This document shows positions 22,866 through 33,818 of a stretch of 64,000 nucleotides of DNA, piece after piece. Position 1 is the first letter of the stretch; each line of letters starts with the position of its first letter. Under the pieces are notes generated by a model, which had not been told where the DNA came from, ran no database searches, and saw nothing but the letters and a program-made list of their open reading frames with translations. The translations under genes and the position numbers were made by a program. This DNA comes from Wenzhouxiangella sp. 15190. GTDB lineage: Bacteria; Pseudomonadota; Gammaproteobacteria; Xanthomonadales; Wenzhouxiangellaceae. The stretch spans positions 1 to 64,000 of the forward strand of contig NZ_QVMV01000028.1 of NCBI RefSeq assembly GCF_003417465.1, in the 5' to 3' direction.

Positions 22866-23507
22866 TCACGGCATCGCCAGCCACGCGCATTCGTGCAGGG
22901 CGGTCAGCCCGCGTTCGGCAAAGCGCGCATGCTGAGCCAATACGTCGCGGCGTTCGAGCAGCTGGAACTGCAGGCCGGGATAGTCCGTCAGTTCATCCTC
23001 GAGGACGGCGAAAGGCGGGCCGTCCATTTCGGTCTGGTCATACTCGAAGGTCACCAACAAACCGCGGGCCTTGTCAGTCAGCAGAGTGCGCAAATGGTCC
23101 AGATAGGCGGGCCGCATGTCATGGGGCAGGGCGATGAGGGCGGCACGGTCATAGAACAGGTCGAAAGGTTCGTTGGTCGCGTAGGCGAAGAAATCGCCCT
23201 CGACCAACTCGACACCCCCGGCGCGCCAGTACGTGAGCTCCGCGACGGCTGATTGCGTTGGCTGTTTGCCCCATTCTTCGAAGAATTCCTTGACTGCCTT
23301 GGCGCTAAGCTCGATGCCGGTCACCTCGTGACCATTCTCGGCCAGCCAGCGCAAATCCAGACTCTTGCCGCACAGGGGGGCCAGCACGCGGCCGGCATGC
23401 ACATCCGCTATTTCATCCCAGTGACGCTTGAGTGCCCAGTGGATGTCGGATTGATGAAAACCGATCTCGCCACGATTCCATCGTTCACGCCAGAAGTCTC
23501 TTTCCAT
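22866..23507 (-). CDS. tpm: Thiopurine S-methyltransferase family protein
   Basis: From ATG 23507 the protein is 213 residues and starts MERDFWRERWNRGEIGFHQ, the family's typical opening. The SAM site shows LAPLCGKSLDLRWLAENGHEVTGIELS near 44-70, and FYDRAALIALPHDMR near 120. Bacterial members methylate selenite/tellurite species or small thiols and can protect against metalloids; physiological substrate here is unknown. An open 20-codon upstream extension is not homologous and was left out. The gene faces the M20 peptidase gene. Confidence 0.9.
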   Translation of the reverse strand: MERDFWRERWNRGEIGFHQSDIHWALKRHWDEIADVHAGRVLAPLCGKSLDLRWLAENGHEVTGIELSAKAVKEFFEEWGKQPTQSAVAELTYWRAGGVELVEGDFFAYATNEPFDLFYDRAALIALPHDMRPAYLDHLRTLLTDKARGLLVTFEYDQTEMDGPPFAVLEDELTDYPGLQFQLLERRDVLAQHARFAERGLTALHECAWLAMP

Positions 23508-23696
23508 TACTCGTTTGAAGTCCTTGATCTTGCGATGACTTGTAGCTCCACGTTCATGAATGGTCAAACGGATGATTTCAGTTCGATGACAGCACTTGAA
23601 ACAGAGGCGTCATATTCGCGTCACCGATGTGCAATGAAGCATCGCTAACGTAGCCGACATTAGTTCAACGCCACACACATCACGGGTAGAGCTTTC

Positions 23697-24485
23697 ATGT
23701 ACAGGCGAGTCTATCAGCCCGGGTTAATCGTGGGGATGCTGCTGTTTCCCCTGATTCTCTCGGCCCAGCCCGCGGGCGACGGGGATAACCTGGAAGCACT
23801 GGCCGAAGAGCTGGTGCGCATTCGCGGCGAGGTCGAATCGCTCAATTCCGAGCTCAACCGCAAACAGGACCGGCACCGAAACGAAATGAGTTCGCTGGCC
23901 GCCCAGAAGGGCGAGCTGGAGGCCACGTTGCGGCGCGAGCAGTTGCGCGTGGACCAGCTGGAAGCCGATCTCGAAACCAACCGCGAGCGTGCCGAGCAGG
24001 CGGGCATCGCCGGCGAATCGCTGGTGCCCGTAGCCGAGGAAGCGATTGCCTCCCTGCGGCGACACATCGAAACCTCCCTGCCGTTCAAGCCTCAGGAGCG
24101 CATGGATGCGCTGGAGGAAATCCAGACGCAGCTCGAAACCGGTTCCCTGGCGCCGCCGCGGGCCGTCAATCGACTCTGGGGCTTCTACGAGGACGAACTG
24201 CGGCTGACGCGCGAGAACGGCCTCCACAGCCAGGTTATCCAGCTCGACGGCGAACAGGTCCTGGCGGACGTGGCGCGCCTGGGCACGGTGGCGATGTACT
24301 TCAAGACACGCGACGGCGAGTACGGTCAGGCCGAACGCAGCGGCGAGGACTGGCGCTTCGCCCGCCTGGACGACAGGGCGGCCATCCAGCGCATCGACAA
24401 GCTGTTCGAGTCCCTCAAGAAGCAGATCCGCACCGGCTATTTCGAACTGCCCAACGGCGCCATCCGGCTGGAGTCCGAACAATGA
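23697..24485 (+). CDS. DUF3450 periplasmic coiled-coil protein of the TonB2 cluster
   Basis: The 262-residue protein has a signal peptide (about residues 1-24), then a long coiled coil (about 32-100, heptads rich in E, L and R), then a conserved C-terminal domain (PRAVNRLWGFYEDELRLTREN, ending SLKKQIRTGYFELPNGAIRLE). This matches DUF3450 proteins encoded first in TonB2-type clusters (the Vibrio VC1548 position). The role is thought to be support of energy transfer in the periplasm but is not defined. Its stop overlaps the ttpC start by four bases. Confidence 0.85.
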   Translation: MYRRVYQPGLIVGMLLFPLILSAQPAGDGDNLEALAEELVRIRGEVESLNSELNRKQDRHRNEMSSLAAQKGELEATLRREQLRVDQLEADLETNRERAEQAGIAGESLVPVAEEAIASLRRHIETSLPFKPQERMDALEEIQTQLETGSLAPPRAVNRLWGFYEDELRLTRENGLHSQVIQLDGEQVLADVARLGTVAMYFKTRDGEYGQAERSGEDWRFARLDDRAAIQRIDKLFESLKKQIRTGYFELPNGAIRLESEQ

Positions 24486-25900
24486 GCATCCGCATCTTTC
24501 ACATTCTGATCCTGCTCGCCGCCGCCTGGCTGGCGGCGCCGGCGACCGCGCAGGAGTCCGAGCCGGTGCAGCCGGAGACCGAGCAGACCGAAACCGAAGC
24601 ACCGCCCGTGGCAGCCCAGGCCCCTTCGCTGGAACAGGCCTTTCAGCGGGAGTTCGCCTTCCTGCAGGGGCAAAAGCGCGACCTGGAGCGGCGCATCGCC
24701 GAGTTCGAGGAAACCAGCGAAGCCGATCGGCAACAGCTGCAGTCGGATATCCAGTCACTCGAGCGTCGGGTGGTCGAGCTGACCAGCCGCGGTGATCGCC
24801 TCGATGAACAGGTGCTCGAGTCCGAGCGCTCGGTCGAGTCGGCCCGCGACAACGTCAACCTGCTGGCCAACACCTTTCTCCAGGCCGAGGCAACGATCGA
24901 TGGCTGGGAAGCCCCGCAGCTCGAAGGCGACGAGGTGCCGCAGGCCGATGACGTGGCTGCGATGTTCGAAAACGTCCGGGCGGAGCTGGCCCGGCGCGGT
25001 GCAGTTCAGCGGGAAAGCGGTGAGTTCTTCCTGGCCGACGGCACGCGGGTGGACGGCGAAATCATCCACGTGGGCCGCATCGCCAGTTTCGGCGTCAGCG
25101 AGCGCGGTGCGGGCGCCCTGGCGCCGGCCGGCGAGGGCGAACTCAAGCTATGGAATGAAGAGTCGACTGAGGCTGCCCGTGCCCTGGCGGCCGGGAAGAT
25201 GGTCTCGCCCCTGCCGGTCTTCATCTATGAAACGCTCAGCTCGGAAGTCGAAGAGAAGGGCAGCAAGGACGTATTCGAGACCATCTCCAGCGGTGGCGTG
25301 ATCGGCTGGATCATCTTCTTCCTGGGTCTGCTGGCCGCCGCGCTGGTCGCCCTGCGGGCCGTGTTCCTGTGGCGTGCCGGCACCTCGACCGGCCGAATTC
25401 TCGATGACGTGGCCGCACCGGTCCGCCGTGGCGACCGTGAAGCCGCGCTGTCGATGCTCAAGAAGCGCAAGGGCGCGACCGCTCGCGTCGTGGCCTCGGC
25501 CATCCGCAGCCTCGATCGTGATCGCGAGCATCTCGAAGACATCGTGTCCGAGTCGATCCTGCACGAGTCCGGGCATCTCAACCGCTTCGGCGCCTTCATC
25601 ATGGTGATTGCCGCGGTCTCGCCGCTGCTGGGCCTGCTCGGCACGGTCACCGGCATGATCTCGACCTTCGATGTCATCACCGAGTTCGGTACCGGCGATC
25701 CCAAGTTGCTGTCGGGCGGTATCTCGATCGCGCTGGTGACCACCGAGCTCGGCCTGATCGTGGCCATCCCGACGCTGCTGTTCGGCAACCTGCTCTCGAG
25801 CTGGGCCGAGCGCATCAAGGACGACATGGAAAAGGCCACGCTTCGCGTGACCAACCAGTACCTCGAAGCCCGGGGCGACACGGAGCAGGTCGGCGGCTGA
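24482..25900 (+). CDS. ttpC: TtpC-like MotA/TolQ/ExbB proton-channel protein with periplasmic coiled coil
   Basis: The 472-residue protein begins with a signal-like segment, has a periplasmic coiled-coil region (about 55-130) and a folded domain, then a membrane helix near 272-296 (GWIIFFLGLLAAALVALRAVFLW). The MotA/TolQ/ExbB domain sits at about 350-460 with FGAFIMVIAAVSPLLGLLGTVTGMISTF and the G-rich SGGISIALVTTELGLIVAIPTLL helix. This architecture is that of TtpC, the extra energiser protein required by TonB2 systems in Vibrio. It overlaps its neighbours on both sides, indicating tight coupling in one operon. Confidence 0.9.
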   Translation: MSIRIFHILILLAAAWLAAPATAQESEPVQPETEQTETEAPPVAAQAPSLEQAFQREFAFLQGQKRDLERRIAEFEETSEADRQQLQSDIQSLERRVVELTSRGDRLDEQVLESERSVESARDNVNLLANTFLQAEATIDGWEAPQLEGDEVPQADDVAAMFENVRAELARRGAVQRESGEFFLADGTRVDGEIIHVGRIASFGVSERGAGALAPAGEGELKLWNEESTEAARALAAGKMVSPLPVFIYETLSSEVEEKGSKDVFETISSGGVIGWIIFFLGLLAAALVALRAVFLWRAGTSTGRILDDVAAPVRRGDREAALSMLKKRKGATARVVASAIRSLDRDREHLEDIVSESILHESGHLNRFGAFIMVIAAVSPLLGLLGTVTGMISTFDVITEFGTGDPKLLSGGISIALVTTELGLIVAIPTLLFGNLLSSWAERIKDDMEKATLRVTNQYLEARGDTEQVGG

Positions 25901-26508
25901 TGTTCGACGAACTGGTCAATGACTTCCGGTTCTACTTCGAAGTGGGCGGCTACGTCATGCCGCCGCTGGTGCTGGCCACGGTGGTGCTGTGGTTCGCCAT
26001 CGGTTACCGGTTCGCCGCGCTCAAGCGGGGCAACCTGCGATCGGTGCGGCGGATCATCCAGAAGCACCCCGTAGGTCTCAGTCATCCACCACGCGGCGTG
26101 ATCGAAAAGGCCATCGAGCAGGGGCTGCGGATCGCACGCTCGAATCACGGCGACCTGAGGCGACTGCTCGACGATGCCTTCTGGCCGATCGAGCGCGACA
26201 TCAAGCGTTTCCACAAGCTGATCATGACCATCGTTGCCGTCGCCCCCCTGATGGGCCTGCTCGGCACCGTGGTGGGCATGATCGAAACCTTCGATTCGCT
26301 TGGTGACATGTCGCTGTTCGCCCAGTCGGGCGGCATTGCCGGCGGCATTTCCCAGGCACTCTTCACCACCCAGATGGGCCTGGCCGTGGCCATTCCCGGC
26401 CTGATCGTCGGCGGCATGCTCGAAAAGCGCGCCACCGTGATCCGCATCGAGCTGGCCCAGGTCAAGGACATCCTCTGCGCCAACGTGCAGAAAGGCAGCC
26501 CGGCATGA
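25900..26508 (+). CDS. exbB: ExbB-type proton-channel subunit
   Basis: This 202-residue MotA/TolQ/ExbB protein has an N-terminal membrane helix (about 17-38), a cytoplasmic loop, and the two-helix channel region TIVAVAPLMGLLGTVVGMIETFDS and GGISQALFTTQMGLAVAIPGLIVGG near 107-185. It would form the pentameric inner-membrane channel that, with ExbD, uses the proton gradient to drive TonB. It starts on TGATG overlapping the ttpC stop and overlaps exbD by four bases. Confidence 0.92.
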   Translation: MFDELVNDFRFYFEVGGYVMPPLVLATVVLWFAIGYRFAALKRGNLRSVRRIIQKHPVGLSHPPRGVIEKAIEQGLRIARSNHGDLRRLLDDAFWPIERDIKRFHKLIMTIVAVAPLMGLLGTVVGMIETFDSLGDMSLFAQSGGIAGGISQALFTTQMGLAVAIPGLIVGGMLEKRATVIRIELAQVKDILCANVQKGSPA

Positions 26509-26915
26509 GATTTCGCGAACGCGCCAACACCGAACAGGCCGTCGACATTTCGCCCCTGATCGACATGGTGTTCATCCTGCTGATCTTCTTCATGGTCTCG
26601 ACGACTTTCGTCAAGGACATGAAGCTCGATCTCGAGCGCCCGAGTGCCACGAGCTCGGAGCAGGCGTCGACCAAGGCCATTCGTCTCTACATCGACAACA
26701 GCGGCGAGACCTGGCTGGACGGCCAGCCGATACGTACCTGGGTGATCCAGAGCAAGCTCAGGGACATGCTGCAGGGCGCTGCTTCCCAATCCGTGCTGGT
26801 CGTCACCGACAGCAATGTACCGGCCAGCAAGCTGGTCGAGGTGGTCGACCAGGCGCGCCGCTCCGGCGCCGCCGACGTCGGCGTGGCCACTGTCGAAGAA
26901 GCCGGTCGTGGTTGA
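26505..26915 (+). CDS. exbD: ExbD-type biopolymer transport protein
   Basis: The 136-residue protein has the single membrane helix with the proton-carrying Asp in ISPLIDMVFILLIFFMVSTTF near 16-36, then a small periplasmic domain. That is the complete ExbD/TolR plan. It works inside the ExbB pentamer. Coupled translationally to exbB (ATGA overlap); the tonB gene follows after 24 bases with an AAGGAGG ribosome site. Confidence 0.92.
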   Translation: MRFRERANTEQAVDISPLIDMVFILLIFFMVSTTFVKDMKLDLERPSATSSEQASTKAIRLYIDNSGETWLDGQPIRTWVIQSKLRDMLQGAASQSVLVVTDSNVPASKLVEVVDQARRSGAADVGVATVEEAGRG

Positions 26916-26939
26916 ACTGAATACCAAGGAGGATGACGC

Positions 26940-27572
26940 ATGACTTCAGAAATCAGGAAATGGACCTACGGCCTGACCTTCATGTTTTTGGGGTCGGTTC
27001 TCATCATCGGCACCTTGCTGATGATCAATCGCCTGGCCAAGGGGCCGGAGGCGGAAGAACTGACCAAACAGACAAGCTTCCAGGTCGATCGCAAGGAAGA
27101 GCCGCCGCCGAAGAAGGTGGTCAAGCGCGAACAGCCCGAACCCCGGCGCTCGCGCGATATCAACCCGCCGATGGTGGATCTCGATACCTCTTTGTCGGGC
27201 ATCGACATGGGCATTCCGGGAATCACGTCCGATGACCTCGGCAGTCTGCGCGATGAGCTGCTGGGCGACACCCGGGACGTGGTCATGACCGACGATTCGG
27301 TCGATCAGCCGCCGCGGCCGACCCGCCAGACACCGCTGCCTTACCCGTCCTCCGCGCGCAAGGACGGCGTTGAAGGCTACGTGGTGCTGTCGCTGCTGAT
27401 CAGCGCCGCCGGCGAGATCGAAAAGGTCCAGGTGCTGGAATCGGGGCCGGACGACCGTTTCGAGGATTCGGCGGTCCAGGGCATCAAGAACTGGCGCTTC
27501 GAGCCCGCCCAGTACCAGGGGCGTAACGTGCGCGTGTGGGCCAAGCAGCGCATTCGCTTCGATCTCAGCTAG
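26940..27572 (+). CDS. tonB: TonB energy transducer
   Basis: The 210-residue protein has one N-terminal membrane anchor (about 11-30), a proline/lysine/glutamate-rich periplasmic spacer (KEEPPPKKVVKREQPEPRR near 55-73), and the C-terminal TonB fold at about 125-208, with the YPSSARKDGVEGYVVLSLLISAAGEI strand-helix and NWRFEPAQYQGRNVRVWAKQRIRF end. It links the ExbB/ExbD/TtpC motor to outer-membrane receptors. The short spacer is typical of TonB2 proteins, which are thought to rely on TtpC to reach the outer membrane. Confidence 0.92.
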   Translation: MTSEIRKWTYGLTFMFLGSVLIIGTLLMINRLAKGPEAEELTKQTSFQVDRKEEPPPKKVVKREQPEPRRSRDINPPMVDLDTSLSGIDMGIPGITSDDLGSLRDELLGDTRDVVMTDDSVDQPPRPTRQTPLPYPSSARKDGVEGYVVLSLLISAAGEIEKVQVLESGPDDRFEDSAVQGIKNWRFEPAQYQGRNVRVWAKQRIRFDLS

Positions 27573-27598
27573 GCGCCGGCAAGGAGATTCCCGCCATC

Positions 27599-28771
27599 AT
27601 GCGCATGTTGTGGCTGATTTTGATCCTGGTGCTTGGCAATACGGCAGGCGCCCAGGAAGAACCCGCATCACAGCCGGAAGACGAAGTCGAGCGCCTGTCG
27701 CTGGCAGCGCTGCTGATCGGCGACGGCAACTATGAGCGAGCACGCGGCGTACTGGCGGCAATCGACGTGGACGATCCCGATGTCGATCGGGTCCGGTACC
27801 ACAGCCTCGACGGGCTGGTGGCGCTCAACCTCGACGAACTGTCCCGGGCCGAGGCCGCTTTCGAGCGCGCGCTCGAGGCCGGGCGCGAGCGCGAGGAGCC
27901 GCCCGCCGACGTGGTCTGGCTTTACCTGGCCCAGGCCCGCTTCGGCCGGGAAGATCATGCCGGCACCCTCGAAGCGCTCGACGGCGCCGATTCCGAAACC
28001 ACCGACCTGCCTTCGGTTTATCTCATGCGGGCCCAGTCGCACTGGCAGATGGGCGATCTCGAGTCCGCCTGGCAGGTGCTCTCGAAGGGTGCCGGGCGCT
28101 TTCCGGATCGCGCCGGGGACTTCACGCGCCAGCAGGTTCATCTGCTGGTCGAGCAGGGGCTCTACCAGGAGGCGGCCGCGCTCGGCCAGCGTTTCATGGC
28201 GCAGGGCGAGGCCACGGCGAATGACGCCCTGGCCATCGGGAACGCGCTGCGCGAAGCCGGTGAATACGAGCAGGCGCTGAGCATTCTCGAATCGGCCAGG
28301 CTCGAGGACAGCGACAACGTGCGCCTGGCGCGGGTGCTAGCCCAGACCTGGCTGGAGCTCGACAAGGTTCTGCCGGCCGCCGACATCCTTCACGAAGCCG
28401 CAAGGCTGGATCCCGCCCTGATGGCCGAAGCGGCCGAACTCTATCGCCGGGCCGGCTGGCTGATGCAGGCGCTCACGCTCAACGCCCGGGTCATCGACCA
28501 GTCGAAAAAGCTCAAGCAGCGCCTGGCTATCTTCATCGAGCTGGGCCGTTTCGACCAGGCAGCCGGCATGGAGTCGGACCTGGTCCGTACCGGCCTGCTC
28601 AACGAAGAAGACATTCGCTATGCGCTGGCCTACGCCCTGTTCAAGACCGGCCGTTACGAGCAGGCCGAATCCCACCTGGCCCGGCTGACGCAAGACGACC
28701 TGTTCCGCAAGGCCAACGAGCTCAGACGAGCCATGGAGCAGTGCCGCGACGAGCCGTGGCTGTGTACCTGA
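27599..28771 (+). CDS. TPR-repeat protein of the TonB2 cluster
   Basis: From ATG 27599 (AAGGAGA upstream) the protein is 390 residues with a signal peptide (about 1-19) followed by tetratricopeptide-like helical repeats, for example DGNYERARGVLAAIDVDDP and REAGEYEQALSILESARLEDSDNVRLARVLAQTWLELDKV. It matches the periplasmic TPR protein that closes TonB2 operons (the VC1543 position). Its job is probably scaffolding of the transport complex. A longer reading frame starting inside tonB is not the likely start. Confidence 0.85.
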   Translation: MRMLWLILILVLGNTAGAQEEPASQPEDEVERLSLAALLIGDGNYERARGVLAAIDVDDPDVDRVRYHSLDGLVALNLDELSRAEAAFERALEAGREREEPPADVVWLYLAQARFGREDHAGTLEALDGADSETTDLPSVYLMRAQSHWQMGDLESAWQVLSKGAGRFPDRAGDFTRQQVHLLVEQGLYQEAAALGQRFMAQGEATANDALAIGNALREAGEYEQALSILESARLEDSDNVRLARVLAQTWLELDKVLPAADILHEAARLDPALMAEAAELYRRAGWLMQALTLNARVIDQSKKLKQRLAIFIELGRFDQAAGMESDLVRTGLLNEEDIRYALAYALFKTGRYEQAESHLARLTQDDLFRKANELRRAMEQCRDEPWLCT

Positions 28772-28796
28772 TCCGCCAATGTTTCCGAGGTATTCG

Positions 28797-31700
28797 ATGA
28801 TCATGCTGCCCAGGGCAATCTGTCTGGCGACAGTGCTCCTTCTGTTGATTGCCGCGCAGGCGAGCGCCCAGGACGACAGCGCGGGCGATATCAGCGTGCT
28901 CGTGTTCGAAAACGGGCGGCCGGTGCCCGGCCTTCGCGTCGAAATCGGCGAGCAGTTCGGGCTGACCAACGCCGACGGCGCCTGGCGCGGACAAGTCGAA
29001 CCCGGGCGCACGCGTCTGGCCGTCTACGAACACGCCCTGGCCCTGGCGGCCCTGCCGCTGGAAGTGCGCCAGGGTGAAGTCGCCCGCTACATCATCACCC
29101 TGGCCGGCCCGGACCGGCAGGCCCGGGTCAGCATCGAGAGTTCTCACGAGGGCGATCGGCAGCCCGCGCCGCGGGGCGCACCGGAAGCGCCGGCGGGCGA
29201 GCAGGGCAGTGGCCTGCTCACCGGCCGCGTCGTCTCGACCGAAGACGGCTCGCCGGTGACCGGCGCGCGCGTGTTCGTCAGCGGCACCCCCGTCGAGGCG
29301 CGCACCGACGAGGATGGTCAGTTCCGCATCGAAGTCCCGACCGGTGAATACGCCGTGTCCGTTCTCCACAGCGAGTTCGCCACGCGCACCGTCGATGGCG
29401 TCCGGATCCAGCGTGAAAGCGAAACGCAGCGAGACTTCGAGCTTCCGCCGTCCGGCCTGGAGCTGGCCGAATACGTCGTGGTCGAGCCGCATATCCAGGG
29501 CAGCGTGACCTCCGTGATCGCCGAGCAGCGGGACACCTCGGGTGTGTCCAATATCATCGGCACCGAGCAGTTCTCGCGCTCGGGCGACGGCGATGCCGGC
29601 AGCGCGCTGGCCCGCGTGACGGGGCTGACCCTGGTCGGCGGGGAGTTCATCTTCATTCGCGGTCTCGGTGAACGTTACTCGAGTACGCTGCTCAACGGCG
29701 CCAACGTGCCCAGCCCGGACCCGACGCGCAAGGTCGTGCCGCTCGACCTTTTCCCGACCGGCGTGATCGAGTCGATTCGCGTGCAGAAAAGCTATTCGCC
29801 GGACCTGCCGGGGGATTTCGGCGGCGGCGTTGTGGAAATCCGCACGCGCGGTATCCCGGAAGCGGACTTTCTCGAGATGAGCGTCTCCGTCGGCGGGCGG
29901 CAGGGCACGACATTCACCGACGGCCTGACCTATGAAGGCGGCGATCGCGACTTCCTGGGGATGGACGACGGAACCCGTGAACTGCCGTCGGCCATCGCCG
30001 ATGCCGTCGAGGACGGCGGAACACTGACGGCCGCGGGGCCGTTCAACCCCGACGGTATATCGCAGGAAGAGCTCGAGATGCTCGGCGAATCCTTCCCCGC
30101 CATCTACCAGGCGGAACGCGAGGAGGTCGGGCCGGACCTGGGCTTGTCGGTCGAAGGCGGCAAGCTGTTCGAATTCAGTGACGACTGGACGGCGGGCATC
30201 ACCACGGCGGTGATGTGGTCCGATTCCTGGCAGACCCGCAGCGAAGAACGCCGGAGTTTCATTCCCCTGGGCGACGGTAGCCTGCGTTCGAATGACGAGT
30301 ACAAAGTCGAGCGCTCCACGCGCGATATCGAGCTCAGTGGCTTCCTCACGGCCGGCCTGCAGTACAGGGAGAATCACCGCATCGATCTGACCTCGATGCT
30401 GCTGCGGCAGACTCAGGACGAGACCTTCATCCAGCAAGGCTACAACCTGGACGAGGATGGCATCGTCCGCTTCACCGAACTGGAGTGGGAGGAGCGCGAA
30501 CTGCTTTCCCACCAGCTGCGTGGTGAACATACGTTTGAATCACTGGGAAAGACCAAGCTGGAGTGGGATTACGCGGACTCGCGCGCAAGGCGTGACGTGC
30601 CCGACCAGCGGCGCTATCGATACGATCCGGACAACGAGTCCGACTTCATCTTTTCGCGTCGTTCCGACAATCTCGTCCGGCGTTTCTCCAAGCTGGAGGA
30701 CGATGCGACTGATTACGGCATCGACCTGAAAGTGCCGTTCGGTTTCGACTGGATGACCGGCAACATAAGTTTCGGCGCTCGGCGCCTGGACAAGTCACGC
30801 GACTCCAGCATTCGCCGCTTCCAGTTCGATGGCACGAACCGCCTGCCGTTCGATCTGCGCCGTGATGAAAACCCGGAAACCTTCCTGAACCCGGAGTTCA
30901 TCGGCCCGGGCGGGTTGGTGCTCAAGGAAACCACGCGCGAGACGGACAACTACACGGCATTGCTCGAAGTGGATGCCCGCTACGCCAACCTCGACATGAC
31001 TTTCTTCGAACGTCTGCGCCTGACCGGGGGTGTTCGCGTCGAGGACTGGGAGCAGAACGTCACGACGTTCCAGCTGCTCAACCCCGGCGCCACTCCGGTG
31101 GTTGCCGAGTTGTCCGACGAAGACCGGCTTCCAGCCTACTCGGCAACCTGGTACATGACTGAAAACCAGCAACTTCGTGCCAGCTACGCCGAAACGATCG
31201 TGCGCCCGGACTTCAAGGAGCTCTCACCGGCACCGTTTACCGACCCGGTCCTCAATCGCGAAGTGATCGGTAACGCCGAACTCGTACCGTCCCGGATCGA
31301 GCACATGGATCTGCGTTGGGAATACTATCCCGAGCCCTCCGAATTGATTTCGCTCGGGCTCTTCTACAAGTCCATCGCCAACCCGATCGAAGTAACCGTC
31401 GAAGCCGGCGTCGAGCAGCGTCTGACCTACGCCAATGCCGACGAAGCCGAAAACTACGGTGTCGAACTCGAGTGGCGCAAGAGCCTCGGCTTCTTCGGCA
31501 ATTTTCTCGGTAACGAAGCGGTGTGGGATCGGCTCTACCTGGCCGGCAACTACTCAAGGGTCGAGTCCGAGATCTTCATCGAGGATCTCGGCATCCTGAC
31601 CAATGAATCCCGCCCGCTGCAGGGACAGTCGCCCTATGTGGCCAACGTCCAGATCGGTTACGACGACGAGGAACGGGACTTCTCTGCCACCCTGCTGCTC

Positions 31701-31937
31701 AACACGGTGGGCGAGCGCATCGTCGAAGTCGGCGTGCTGGGCGCGCCCGACAAGATAGAACAACCTGCGCCCGACCTTGACCTGGTGTTTCAGTGGCGAT
31801 GGTTCGATCTGTTCGACTTCAAGGCGGAGTTCGGCAACCTTCTGGATTCCGAGTTCGAGATCCGCCAGGGCGAGGAGGTCACGCAACGCTACAAGCGTGG
31901 CCGCGAATTCAGCCTGGGTGTCAGCTGGGAATACTGA
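28797..31937 (+). CDS. TonB-dependent outer-membrane receptor with regulatory-like N-terminal domain
   Basis: From ATG 28797 (GAGG six bases before) the 1046-residue protein has a signal peptide, a first Ig-like segment, and a carboxypeptidase-regulatory-like domain near 130-210 (GRVVSTEDGSPVTGARVFVSG). A plug domain near 230-350 follows (FIFIRGLGERYSSTLLNGANVPSPDP, DLFPTGVIESIRVQKSYSPDLPGDFGGGVVEIRTRG). A long beta barrel ends in FSLGVSWEY, with the aromatic C-terminus required for outer-membrane insertion. Receptors with such extra N-terminal domains resemble Oar, which in myxobacteria helps secrete a protease. It sits between a complete TonB motor and a secreted protein gene, so the cargo may be that protein or its ligand. 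Confidence 0.9.
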   Translation: MIMLPRAICLATVLLLLIAAQASAQDDSAGDISVLVFENGRPVPGLRVEIGEQFGLTNADGAWRGQVEPGRTRLAVYEHALALAALPLEVRQGEVARYIITLAGPDRQARVSIESSHEGDRQPAPRGAPEAPAGEQGSGLLTGRVVSTEDGSPVTGARVFVSGTPVEARTDEDGQFRIEVPTGEYAVSVLHSEFATRTVDGVRIQRESETQRDFELPPSGLELAEYVVVEPHIQGSVTSVIAEQRDTSGVSNIIGTEQFSRSGDGDAGSALARVTGLTLVGGEFIFIRGLGERYSSTLLNGANVPSPDPTRKVVPLDLFPTGVIESIRVQKSYSPDLPGDFGGGVVEIRTRGIPEADFLEMSVSVGGRQGTTFTDGLTYEGGDRDFLGMDDGTRELPSAIADAVEDGGTLTAAGPFNPDGISQEELEMLGESFPAIYQAEREEVGPDLGLSVEGGKLFEFSDDWTAGITTAVMWSDSWQTRSEERRSFIPLGDGSLRSNDEYKVERSTRDIELSGFLTAGLQYRENHRIDLTSMLLRQTQDETFIQQGYNLDEDGIVRFTELEWEERELLSHQLRGEHTFESLGKTKLEWDYADSRARRDVPDQRRYRYDPDNESDFIFSRRSDNLVRRFSKLEDDATDYGIDLKVPFGFDWMTGNISFGARRLDKSRDSSIRRFQFDGTNRLPFDLRRDENPETFLNPEFIGPGGLVLKETTRETDNYTALLEVDARYANLDMTFFERLRLTGGVRVEDWEQNVTTFQLLNPGATPVVAELSDEDRLPAYSATWYMTENQQLRASYAETIVRPDFKELSPAPFTDPVLNREVIGNAELVPSRIEHMDLRWEYYPEPSELISLGLFYKSIANPIEVTVEAGVEQRLTYANADEAENYGVELEWRKSLGFFGNFLGNEAVWDRLYLAGNYSRVESEIFIEDLGILTNESRPLQGQSPYVANVQIGYDDEERDFSATLLLNTVGERIVEVGVLGAPDKIEQPAPDLDLVFQWRWFDLFDFKAEFGNLLDSEFEIRQGEEVTQRYKRGREFSLGVSWEY

Positions 31938-32064
31938 AATCCCAAGGGCTGTAAAGAATCGGTCATGTACAGGTCACGGATCTGACACCCAGGCCCAATA
32001 CGCTGAGCATGATGACGGTAGTTCATCGTCCTTCACTCGCGAAATGAAAGCAGAGGAAACAAGC

Positions 32065-33750
32065 ATGCTCAAACATATGAAGCGCAACCTTGTGGCGTTT
32101 GCGGCCGGATCAATGCTGATCGGATCGGCAAACGCTTTCGTAGTCAATGAAGAATTCACCGGTAACTACTTTGAAGAGGGCAAGAGTGGCCGTGGGGTGA
32201 TCGTTGATATCGTTCCCTCCAACAACCAGGAATTTGGAAATGCCGTGATTGCCCAGTGGTTCACTTTCCGTGATGGAGCTCCGCTGTGGCTGACGGGCTT
32301 CGGCTCGATCGATCAGAACACCAATATCGCTGAGCTCGACTTCTACGAGCTCGAGGGCGGCAGTTTTGGCCCGGAGTTCACCGAAGATGACGCCAGCCAG
32401 GAAATTTGGGGCACCGGCACGCTGAGCTTCGACAGCTGCGACCAGTTGACCCTGGACTATAACGGTGACGATGGAACCGGCACGCTGGATCTCTCACCCG
32501 TTTCCCAGGGTGCTGAATGTATCGTCAAGCGTGAATTCGAAGGCTGTCCCGATTTTGCCAGCGCCGGGCCGCTCGAGGGCTCGTGCATCGTCGGCGGCGA
32601 GGTCAATTCCGACATCGCACTGAGCAACGAAATCACCTGGTTGATCCAGGGCCAGCTCATCATCAACGACGGCGCTTCTCTGACGATCGAGCCCAACACC
32701 GAACTGGTCGGCGGCACCCTGGGTGATACCGACACGCTGGTGGTCAAGCAGGGCGGCCAGATCTTTGCCGAAGGCACGGCCAGCAACCCGATCATCATGC
32801 GCGGCCCGGACGCCGCCACGCGTGCCGAGTGGGGCGGTGTGGTCATCAACGGTTTCGCCCCGATCAACGGCTGCTCGGAAGGCACCGATCCCTGCACCGC
32901 GCAAGGCGAGGGCAATTCCGGAACCTACGGCGGTAACGACCCGCACGACAACAGCGGCGTCATGCGCTACATGGTCGTCTCCAACGCCGGCCGCCAGTTC
33001 AGCGAAGAGAACGAGCTCAACGGCATCGCCTTCCAGGGCGTGGGCGACGGCACCACGGTCGAGTACATCCAGGTCCACCTCAACGAAGACGACGGCGTCG
33101 AGTTCTTCGGCGGCACGGTCAACGCCAAGTACCTGGTCCTGACCGGCATCGGCGACGACAGCCTCGACTGGACCCAGGGCTGGCAGGGCAAGGCACAGTT
33201 CGTTCTCGCCAAGCAGTACACCGACAACGGCGACCAGGGTATCGAGGCCGACAACAACGGCGACGCCAACGACTCGACTCCGCGCGCCAAGCCGATGCTG
33301 GCCAACATGACCTACATCGGCCAGTCCAACACCGACATCGGCATCCTGCTGCGTGAAGGCACCGGCGCCAACATCGCCAACACCGTGGTGACCGGCTTCG
33401 GCGAGTTCTGTCTCGATATCGACAACGAGTCGACCTTCGAGAACGAAGAAAACCTGACCATCGAAAACAGCGTCGTCGGCGGCTGCGGCGAAACCTTCAG
33501 CGAAGATGGCGAAGACCTGTTCAGCGTTTCCAACTGGTTCTTCAGCTTCCCGGGCAACGTCGAAGCCAACCCGCGACTGTCGAACTACGCCCCGAACGCC
33601 AACTCGCCGGCCATCGGCATCGGCGCCGTCCCGTTCGAAGACGACTTCTTCGACAACGTCGACTACGCCGGTGCAATTTCGGGCACGGGAGCTGACTGGA
33701 CCAGGGGCTGGACGGTCGGTCTCGACCGCACCGCACCGCTGGGCCAGTAA
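32065..33750 (+). CDS. Secreted right-handed beta-helix-like protein
   Basis: The 561-residue protein has a clear signal peptide (about 1-26, ending GSANA). An N-terminal domain (about 27-150) contains EEGKSGRGVIVDI and QWFTFRDGAPLWLTG, a module common in exported proteins of Xanthomonadales-like bacteria. The remainder is Gly/Asn/Asp-rich with recurring short strands (LTIEPNTELVGG, VEYIQVHLNEDDGVEFFGGTVNAKYLVLTG, ADNNGDAN), consistent with a beta-helix. Four cysteine pairs suggest disulfides. AGAGGAAA precedes the ATG. It is the last gene before the terminator at 33792, 127 bases after the receptor gene. Confidence 0.75.
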   Translation: MLKHMKRNLVAFAAGSMLIGSANAFVVNEEFTGNYFEEGKSGRGVIVDIVPSNNQEFGNAVIAQWFTFRDGAPLWLTGFGSIDQNTNIAELDFYELEGGSFGPEFTEDDASQEIWGTGTLSFDSCDQLTLDYNGDDGTGTLDLSPVSQGAECIVKREFEGCPDFASAGPLEGSCIVGGEVNSDIALSNEITWLIQGQLIINDGASLTIEPNTELVGGTLGDTDTLVVKQGGQIFAEGTASNPIIMRGPDAATRAEWGGVVINGFAPINGCSEGTDPCTAQGEGNSGTYGGNDPHDNSGVMRYMVVSNAGRQFSEENELNGIAFQGVGDGTTVEYIQVHLNEDDGVEFFGGTVNAKYLVLTGIGDDSLDWTQGWQGKAQFVLAKQYTDNGDQGIEADNNGDANDSTPRAKPMLANMTYIGQSNTDIGILLREGTGANIANTVVTGFGEFCLDIDNESTFENEENLTIENSVVGGCGETFSEDGEDLFSVSNWFFSFPGNVEANPRLSNYAPNANSPAIGIGAVPFEDDFFDNVDYAGAISGTGADWTRGWTVGLDRTAPLGQ

Positions 33751-33791
33751 GCACAAGCTTCATTCTTCAGACAGACCCATTGCAGCATTCG

Positions 33792-33818
33792 GGCCCCGCT
33801 TCGGCGGGGCCATTTTTT
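33792..33818 (+). terminator. Rho-independent terminator ending the TonB2 unit
   Basis: GGCCCCGC-TTCG-GCGGGGCC forms an 8-bp stem with the very stable TTCG loop, followed by ATTTTTT. It lies about 40 bases after the beta-helix gene. Confidence 0.92.

Follow-up and report, generated by a model that had tools for sequence, protein, structure and literature searches.

The first 64,000 nucleotides of contig NZ_QVMV01000028.1 of Wenzhouxiangella sp. 15190, here called the window, contain eight genes on the forward strand that encode a TonB2-type motor, a TonB-dependent receptor and a secreted beta-helix protein, the partner of that receptor. With moderate confidence we interpret this unit as a phosphorus-scavenging outer-membrane module under the control of PhoB. 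Gene content, conservation of Pho-box-like sites, the almost invariable joint presence of the receptor and beta-helix genes and their linkage, joint replacement of the receptor barrel and the partner, and co-inheritance of the receptor N-terminal domains with the motor were computed here. The joint replacement indicates a matched pair at the outer face, and the Pho-type regulation, taken with the related pairs of Caulobacter and Flavobacterium, places the module in phosphate starvation.

The motor genes encode a TtpB-type DUF3450 protein (23697..24485; PF11932, 115 bits, above the cut-off), a TtpC-type ExbB paralogue (24482..25900; PF01618), ExbB (25900..26508; PF01618), ExbD (26505..26915; PF02472), TonB (26940..27572; PF03544 and TIGR01352) and a TtpD-type TPR protein (27599..28771; TPR families, the start being picked by inspection for a signal peptide), which together form a TonB2-type (TtpB/C/D) energiser in one ordered cluster. 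They are followed by the 1052-aa receptor (28779..31937; Plug, TonB_dep_Rec and CarboxypepD_reg matches) and the beta-helix protein (32065..33750), which has no Pfam or NCBIfam match and was recognized from an AlphaFold2 model and VIA-align. The same eight genes, in this order and on this strand, had been proposed in an earlier reading of the letters of the window (the sequence-only reading); families were found for the first seven, and the last was identified by its model. Neighbours from the DUF3450 gene to the receptor overlap by 1-4 bp or are spaced by 7-26 bp, in agreement with the tight packing described for the six motor genes. The strong terminator placed at the end of the unit is there as well, as a stem-loop of 8 G-C pairs followed by ATTTTTTG (33792..33811, forward strand), the strongest of 12 terminator-like sites against 9.1 expected. 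The genes were also said to run straight into the receptor and the beta-helix gene, and this is true of the receptor but not of the beta-helix gene, because the 127-bp gap before it carries a Pho-box-like array (31949-31988).

Pairing and joint replacement of receptor and partner

Whether the beta-helix gene is missing from, or unlinked in, most genomes with the receptor was asked directly, and the pairing held (61/62 among relatives and 20/20 class-wide). In 121 genomes, this one and 120 relatives, the receptor (at least 287 bits) was found in 62 and the beta-helix protein (at least 100 bits) in 61; 61 genomes have both, one the receptor only, none the beta-helix protein only and 59 neither (Fisher p 3e-34 for genomes that are not independent). 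The contig of the receptor-only genome, G085, stops 436 bp past the receptor. A class-wide draw of 276 genomes gave the receptor in 20 (E <=1e-30), the beta-helix protein in 22 (E <=1e-12) and both in 20, always on one contig and a few kb apart (20/20). At the window and 60 related loci, the partner gene lies at most 700 bp downstream of the receptor in 42, divergently upstream of DUF3450 in ten and elsewhere nearby in four; in 5 of the 61 it is outside the stretch (L075, L085 and L089 (contig end within reach), L090 and L108).

A scan of named genome contigs with the beta-helix family yielded 543 loci, and the best 80 belong by record title to Pseudomonadota, Bacteroidota, Poribacteria, Acidobacteria, Gemmatimonadetes, Planctomycetota and others. 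Among these best 80 of 543, a receptor of this type lies in the stretch in 69; both frames could be measured in 67, of which 58 have the two less than 700 bp apart and 7 more have the motor between them. Of the 11 receptor-less loci only L147, L169 and L195 come with complete flanking sequence on either side. Among named relatives the nearest one found is L133, a Wenzhouxiangella contig that agrees in length and matches with the same-genus locus L070. Each of the pairs L070/L133 and L073/L134, alike in length and matches, is one contig encountered by different routes, so that counts over both sets include at least two duplicates.

In one relative of the same genus (L074) and two of the same family (L076 and L079), the motor is of the local lineage and the receptor and beta-helix protein are of another type; these are three relatives, not necessarily three separate replacement events. 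The motor of L074 is 86-87% identical to that of the window's clade, its receptor 48% at best, and its beta-helix protein is nearest to that of L076 (77%). Pairwise identities were compared over 44 of the 61 loci (17 are missing a part), the motor being represented by TtpC, ExbB, ExbD and TonB. Raw rank correlations are modest, at 0.61 for motor-receptor, 0.32 for motor-partner and 0.42 for receptor-partner. The receptor-partner correlation is 0.80 once the motor is controlled for; motor-partner with the receptor constant is -0.16, and motor-receptor with the partner constant 0.59.

The flip in identity falls inside the receptor, close to residue 231 for L074 and somewhere from about 185 to 231 for L076 and L079. 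Ahead of it, the N-terminal domains agree with the motor lineage; after it, the plug and barrel agree with the other type. Trees were built for 22 loci that we chose from the 44, with groups named after the identities were known. For the N-terminal domains (36-225), in a tree with one long branch (L093), L074 joins the window's clade (84/94, not starred), and a group of L074, L076 and L079 is rejected (approximately unbiased test, p 0.0025). The other three trees were made by a quick method. The plug-barrel tree joins L074, L076 and L079 (100) and rejects L074 with the window's clade (p 7.5e-44), as does the beta-helix tree (p 3.4e-39), and the TtpC tree rejects the trio (p 8.8e-81). Since the barrel and the partner are replaced jointly and the N-terminal domains stay with the motor, the barrel and the beta-helix protein form the specificity unit, and the N-terminal domains belong with the motor. 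Such joint exchange of a gate and its partner suggests one nutrient-capturing device. The dedicated motor-receptor-partner module of the sequence-only reading is thus well supported by co-occurrence, linkage, joint replacement and N-terminal domains that track the motor.

Pho-box-like sites in the promoter regions

Neither the Pho-type promoters nor the connection with phosphate starvation were noticed in the sequence-only reading, which also missed ElpS/CC0171 and FI/FII, the relatives known from the literature. Upstream of the motor operon lies a Pho-box-like direct repeat, GCGTCAT-attc-GCGTCAC (23607..23624, forward strand), and sites of this kind are found again, with an 11-bp period, upstream of DUF3450 in relatives; the array 5' of the beta-helix gene (31949..31988, forward strand) consists of four 7-mers in 11-bp steps, CTGTAAA, CGGTCAT, AGGTCAC and CTGACAC. 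The pattern GTCATN6GTCA has exactly two sites in the window, one before the motor operon (23609) and one in the receptor/beta-helix gap (31962); two or more such sites anywhere were seen in 8 of 100 shuffled windows. Over the whole genome, GTCAYN6GTCAY matches 17 times and its reversed form, used as a control, 6 times. Two of the 17 matches, which overlap, precede the phoB-phoR-pstSCAB-phoU cluster (named by inspection, its PstS-like match being under the cut-off), two are those of the module, a further 12 fall within listed open frames and the last at a frame start. The sites of the module resemble the box before phoB of this genome. An E. coli-type 18-mer with at most three mismatches gave 11 sites against 6.9 expected, which is uninformative alone.

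For the window and the 60 related receptor loci we scored the best half-site pair in the 200 bp upstream of each gene, with a threshold of 18. At 11-bp spacing this score is reached upstream of DUF3450 in 21 of 42 loci, upstream of the beta-helix gene in 17 of 56 and upstream of the receptor in 0 of 57, and by 1.1% of 366 random stretches; coding DNA makes up the receptor control and most of the random set. After shuffling of the upstream stretches the mean number reaching 18 was 0.1 and 0.2 (maximum 2), and at the six other spacings (8-10 and 12-14) only 0-2 upstream stretches reach it. Composition plays some part, because mean scores at some other spacings are also above those of the receptor control, but it does not account for the peak at 11 bp, and by this spacing control chance Pho boxes were rejected. 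Control by PhoB in phosphate starvation is an in silico assignment, made from the arrays and from the 11-bp peak in relatives. At distant non-Bacteroidota loci, with the same spacing and threshold, 10 of 57 beta-helix upstream regions reach the score, compared with 2 of 50 upstream of the receptor and 2 of 316 random stretches.

Some loci also have pho genes in the neighbourhood. Within the stretch, no longer than about 22 kb, at least one of phoB, phoR, pstB and phoU is present at 11 of the 60 related loci and at 8 of the 80 distant ones; these are raw counts without a background control and with thresholds picked while reading the table. In an Alteromonas locus (L167) the order is phoB-phoR-phosphate-binding-like protein-oxygenase-beta-helix-receptor-motor, and PhoB of this locus and of L185 scores above the TIGR02154 cut-off. 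The two genes between phoR and the beta-helix gene there (6331-8246 of L167) encode the phosphate-binding-like protein and a 2OG-Fe(II) oxygenase.

No iron box had been seen upstream of the unit, and this stands: in the two promoter gaps the best match to what we take to be the Fur consensus is 9 and 10 of 19, compared with a mean of 9.3 in random windows. Iron regulation is thus not supported, as the Fur-like match is not above chance. The promoter gap of the motor operon, 129 bp long, is common to a divergent thiopurine-methyltransferase-like gene on the minus strand (22866-23567; named by inspection).

Architecture of the receptor, its partner and the motor

The AlphaFold2 model of the receptor (pLDDT 87) has two N-terminal domains (residues 36-121 and 144-222; 28884..29444), which evolve with the motor, and a plug and 22-strand barrel (29505..31934), the part replaced together with the beta-helix gene in the three relatives. 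Between the second N-terminal domain and the plug runs a low-confidence linker (residues 226-238; 29454..29492), at or near the exchange junction of the relatives, that likely holds the TonB box, assigned by inspection only. Foldseek matched the model to solved TonB-dependent transporters (best E 6e-29), mostly importers, including XusA, which works with the surface lipoprotein XusB; XusA (9gbc) is also the best match by sequence in PDB. The receptor has no other match in its own genome. The label 'Oar-like' given to it holds for the domain architecture only, a carboxypeptidase-regulatory-like N-terminal domain, a plug and a barrel; the best curated NCBIfam model is TIGR01782 (TonB-Xanth-Caul), at 208 bits under its cut-off of 310.

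Possession of a long N-terminal extension goes with possession of the motor. Among 141 loci, 54 combine a long extension with 5-6 motor genes and 60 a short one with none. Of the others, one has a long extension and no motor in reach, two long ones lie near contig starts, two short ones are start-codon artefacts, and four short receptors (Alteromonas and kin) have another motor close by, one of weak similarity; the motif is absent from 5 loci and a whole receptor frame from 13. L138 and L159 are only seeming exceptions, the chosen start being too far downstream (the receptor match begins at residues 34 and 38), and the short receptors of L063, L073, L109 and L134 are cut by contig ends.

The model of the partner (pLDDT 85) comprises a signal peptide (residues 1-24, by inspection), an N-terminal beta-domain (25-156) and a right-handed parallel beta-helix (157-544). 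Foldseek alone was weak (best E 3e-3); a second look with VIA-align, which matched about residues 157-544 to right-handed beta-helices with Z up to 23.4, settled the modelled fold, not the function. The assignment made from the letters alone is confirmed in this way, with the correction that a second domain, at about 25-156, precedes the helix. Sequence searches found no solved relative and no useful match in Pfam, NCBIfam or PDB sequences, apart from one weak Beta_helix match among the 40 members of alignment A2, and no catalytic family was matched in Pfam. The partner has no Pfam SusD match and its fold is a beta-helix, so that it is not a SusD-family partner.

Eight residues (E282, D342, D343, E346, D364, D365, D368 and E394) are acidic in 40/40 members of A2, which covers several phyla, and in 16/16 of a second alignment, A1; D295 is acidic in 38/40 and 16/16. 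E317 and D396, acidic in 40/40 and 97% of A2, are not counted as conserved, since they fall short of 90% in A1. Three of the residue pairs are 22 positions apart, which suggests one acidic patch on successive coils, possibly a metal or catalytic site. The protein as a whole is acidic (pI 4.05).

The signal peptide of the window's partner is of the ordinary type, without a lipobox, so that no lipid anchor of the ElpS or FI/FII kind is predicted, whereas a rule whose choice of start leans slightly towards finding a lipobox flagged 56 of the 79 distant relatives. Of the 56 near relatives, four were flagged in apparent error, and the unflagged L119 looks like a lipoprotein by eye. A second receptor/partner pair was sought in the genome and rejected: the receptor has no further match, and six other matches to the partner (L007-L012) cover the N-terminal domain alone. 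That domain (residues 25-156; 32137-32532) is thus present, with about 26-36% identity, in six further proteins predicted to be secreted, where it is joined to apparent leucine-rich repeats, a cyclophilin or its own copies (by inspection), and it is perhaps a shared sorting or anchoring domain; its only Foldseek matches are weak ones to lipocalins (nitrophorin). In many alpha- and gammaproteobacteria (L144, L146, L160, L163, L167, L174, L176 and others) the product of the partner gene measures about 900-1360 aa; several genomes show two distinct beta-helix matches within a single frame, which looks like a duplication.

The genome has two further DUF3450 clusters, on contigs C7 and C39, with DUF3450 scores of 249 and 245 against 115 bits here; the motor of the module is therefore an extra, divergent motor of the genome. 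Its gene content and order are identical to those of the Vibrio TonB2 and TonB3 systems (TtpB-TtpC-ExbB-ExbD-TonB-TtpD; PMC6957404). Vibrio TonB2 is iron-regulated and serves several siderophores, in contrast to the present motor with its Pho-type promoter and its tie to one receptor.

Function in the light of published relatives

ElpS of Caulobacter crescentus (CC0170/CCNA_00169) is a secreted protein encoded beside the TonB-dependent receptor CC0171, and the co-occurrence of elpS and cc0171 homologues was already noted by its authors (PMC2996285). The elpS promoter is PhoB-dependent and responds to phosphate starvation (PMC5172544), and the Caulobacter PhoB regulon is reported to include various TonB-dependent receptors (PMC11208175). 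The window's pair shares with ElpS/CC0171 the neighbouring receptor and, by prediction, the type of promoter. ElpS, however, is lipidated and encoded next to a type II secretion system, and motor genes are not described in the ElpS paper. The protein of the window has instead an ordinary signal peptide and an additional N-terminal domain, and a dedicated motor accompanies it; for lack of a lipobox it is filed as a relative rather than as an ElpS. The Caulobacter order partner-receptor-gspC-gspD-gspE recurs in Maricaulis, Kordiimonas and others (gspD of L163 by TIGR02517, the remaining gsp genes by inspection or tblastn). As published for Caulobacter, gspD is close by in ten of all loci (L142, L144, L160, L163, L164, L186, L193, L194, L201 and L119), a set by which this layout is extended to Kordiimonas, SAR86 and a relative from the same order as the window.

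In Flavobacterium johnsoniae the FI and FII lipoproteins adjoin TonB-dependent receptors (Fjoh_3856/3857 and Fjoh_0546/0545) and are induced by low phosphate; FII has a pectin-lyase-fold entry and lies beside phoBR, both are given by the authors as 31-36% identical to ElpS, and one Flavobacterium member is the most abundant exoprotein in low phosphate (PMC8115612). These loci differ from the window in that they have no motor genes, the receptor has one N-terminal domain, not two, and the partner is lipidated. A Flavobacterium locus in our set (L207) has the FII layout and relatives of both window proteins, and its PhoB-like regulator scores 214 bits, under the TIGR02154 cut-off of 296. Partners in ElpS-type and FII-type gene order, each with an adjacent TonB-dependent receptor, were found by searching with the window's family, so the link to ElpS and Fjoh proteins is made via gene layout. 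A receptor with a matched extracellular partner is also seen in SusC/SusD, XusA/XusB and TbpA/TbpB. Their partners SusD, XusB and TbpB are not known to be beta-helix proteins.

Taken together, we propose that under low phosphate active PhoB would bind the two tandem-repeat sites and turn on the motor-receptor operon and, from a separate promoter, the beta-helix gene. The TtpB/TtpC/ExbB/ExbD/TonB/TtpD motor would energise the receptor, probably via its two N-terminal periplasmic domains, as their co-inheritance suggests. The beta-helix protein may dock on the outside of the barrel and there capture, or with its conserved acidic site trim, a phosphorus-containing ligand, which the receptor would import.

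Several observations weigh against this proposal. The Pho consensus behind the site calls is one that we assume, the site was first noticed by eye, the related loci in the Pho-box counts are not independent of each other, and Bacteroidota showed no enrichment of such a box (beta-helix upstream regions 0/15, receptor 1/15). Two genomes of the class-wide draw (G298 and G330) have the beta-helix gene without the receptor, the two genes are unlinked in L090 and L108, and L117 is the locus with a long receptor extension and no motor. Since the window's partner is without the lipobox of most distant relatives, its stable location at the surface is not assured. Finally, cc0171 was reported as constitutive, not induced by phosphate limitation, with internal phosphate unchanged (PMC2996285).

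The sequence-only reading had left open whether the partner captures a ligand or is itself exported; sequence does not separate the two, and capture fits better. On the export alternative, which we hold to be unlikely, the motor would drive the beta-helix protein from the periplasm through the receptor, and the protein would then mobilise phosphate outside the cell. A precedent exists in Myxococcus xanthus, where the TonB-dependent transporter Oar is linked to secretion of the protease PopC (PMC6434023), though the likeness is that of a transporter tied to a secreted protein, shown there for PopC. The ordinary signal peptide of the window's partner would suit export, joint replacement is also expected of a carrier and its cargo, and ElpS arrives at the cell surface independently of the type II system (PMC2996285), which leaves room for export. 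On the other hand, deletion of cc0171 did not suppress ElpS production, a statement on production, not surface location, for which data are not shown there (PMC2996285). The partner is moreover a predicted lipoprotein in most distant lineages (56/79), and in Bacteroidota the order is receptor then lipoprotein, as in SusC/SusD. Surface lipoproteins of the SusC/SusD type have their own export route. The transporters matched by fold are known mostly as importers, with no solved Oar structure among them. In its boldest form, a rather doubtful one, the receptor would be a TonB-powered secretion port, with the phosphate-controlled motor driving the matched beta-helix protein through the barrel via the N-terminal domains, and ElpS-like proteins of many phyla would get to the cell surface through their partner receptor; if true, this would turn the single Oar/PopC case into a widespread route and explain how ElpS crosses the outer membrane.

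It is likewise improbable that the beta-helix protein is a free extracellular enzyme (a lyase, a hydrolase or a phosphatase helper) that is merely co-regulated with a receptor importing the released product without contact. Its fold is that of polysaccharide lyases, epimerases, polygalacturonases and phage tailspikes, eight acidic residues are invariant in the two alignments, with three pairs of them 22 positions apart, and ElpS secretion goes with higher alkaline phosphatase activity in supernatants (PMC2996285). However, partner and barrel were replaced jointly while the motor stayed unchanged, and partner and receptor adjoin each other across phyla in differing gene orders, which suggests a matched pair; the Pfam searches offered no catalytic family. 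An iron (siderophore) system like the Vibrio TonB2, with its identical six motor genes in identical order, is very improbable, since neither promoter gap has a Fur-like site above chance, both have Pho-type sites instead, and the related pairs respond to phosphate (PMC8115612, PMC5172544). Capture or trimming of a phosphorus ligand, followed by its import, is thus the favoured function of the module.

The receptor/beta-helix pair and its response to phosphate are already known in outline; for a Pho-type TonB2 motor, barrel-partner replacement and motor-linked N-terminal domains no report was found in the literature searched (one library), nor was any account of this pairing other than the papers cited. 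The pair spans several phyla, and neither Pfam nor NCBIfam annotates its beta-helix partner. The natural replacements amount to a ready-made dissection, in which the N-terminal domains go with the motor and the barrel goes with the partner, and this makes it testable how one TonB complex selects one receptor among many and what the ElpS-type proteins do.

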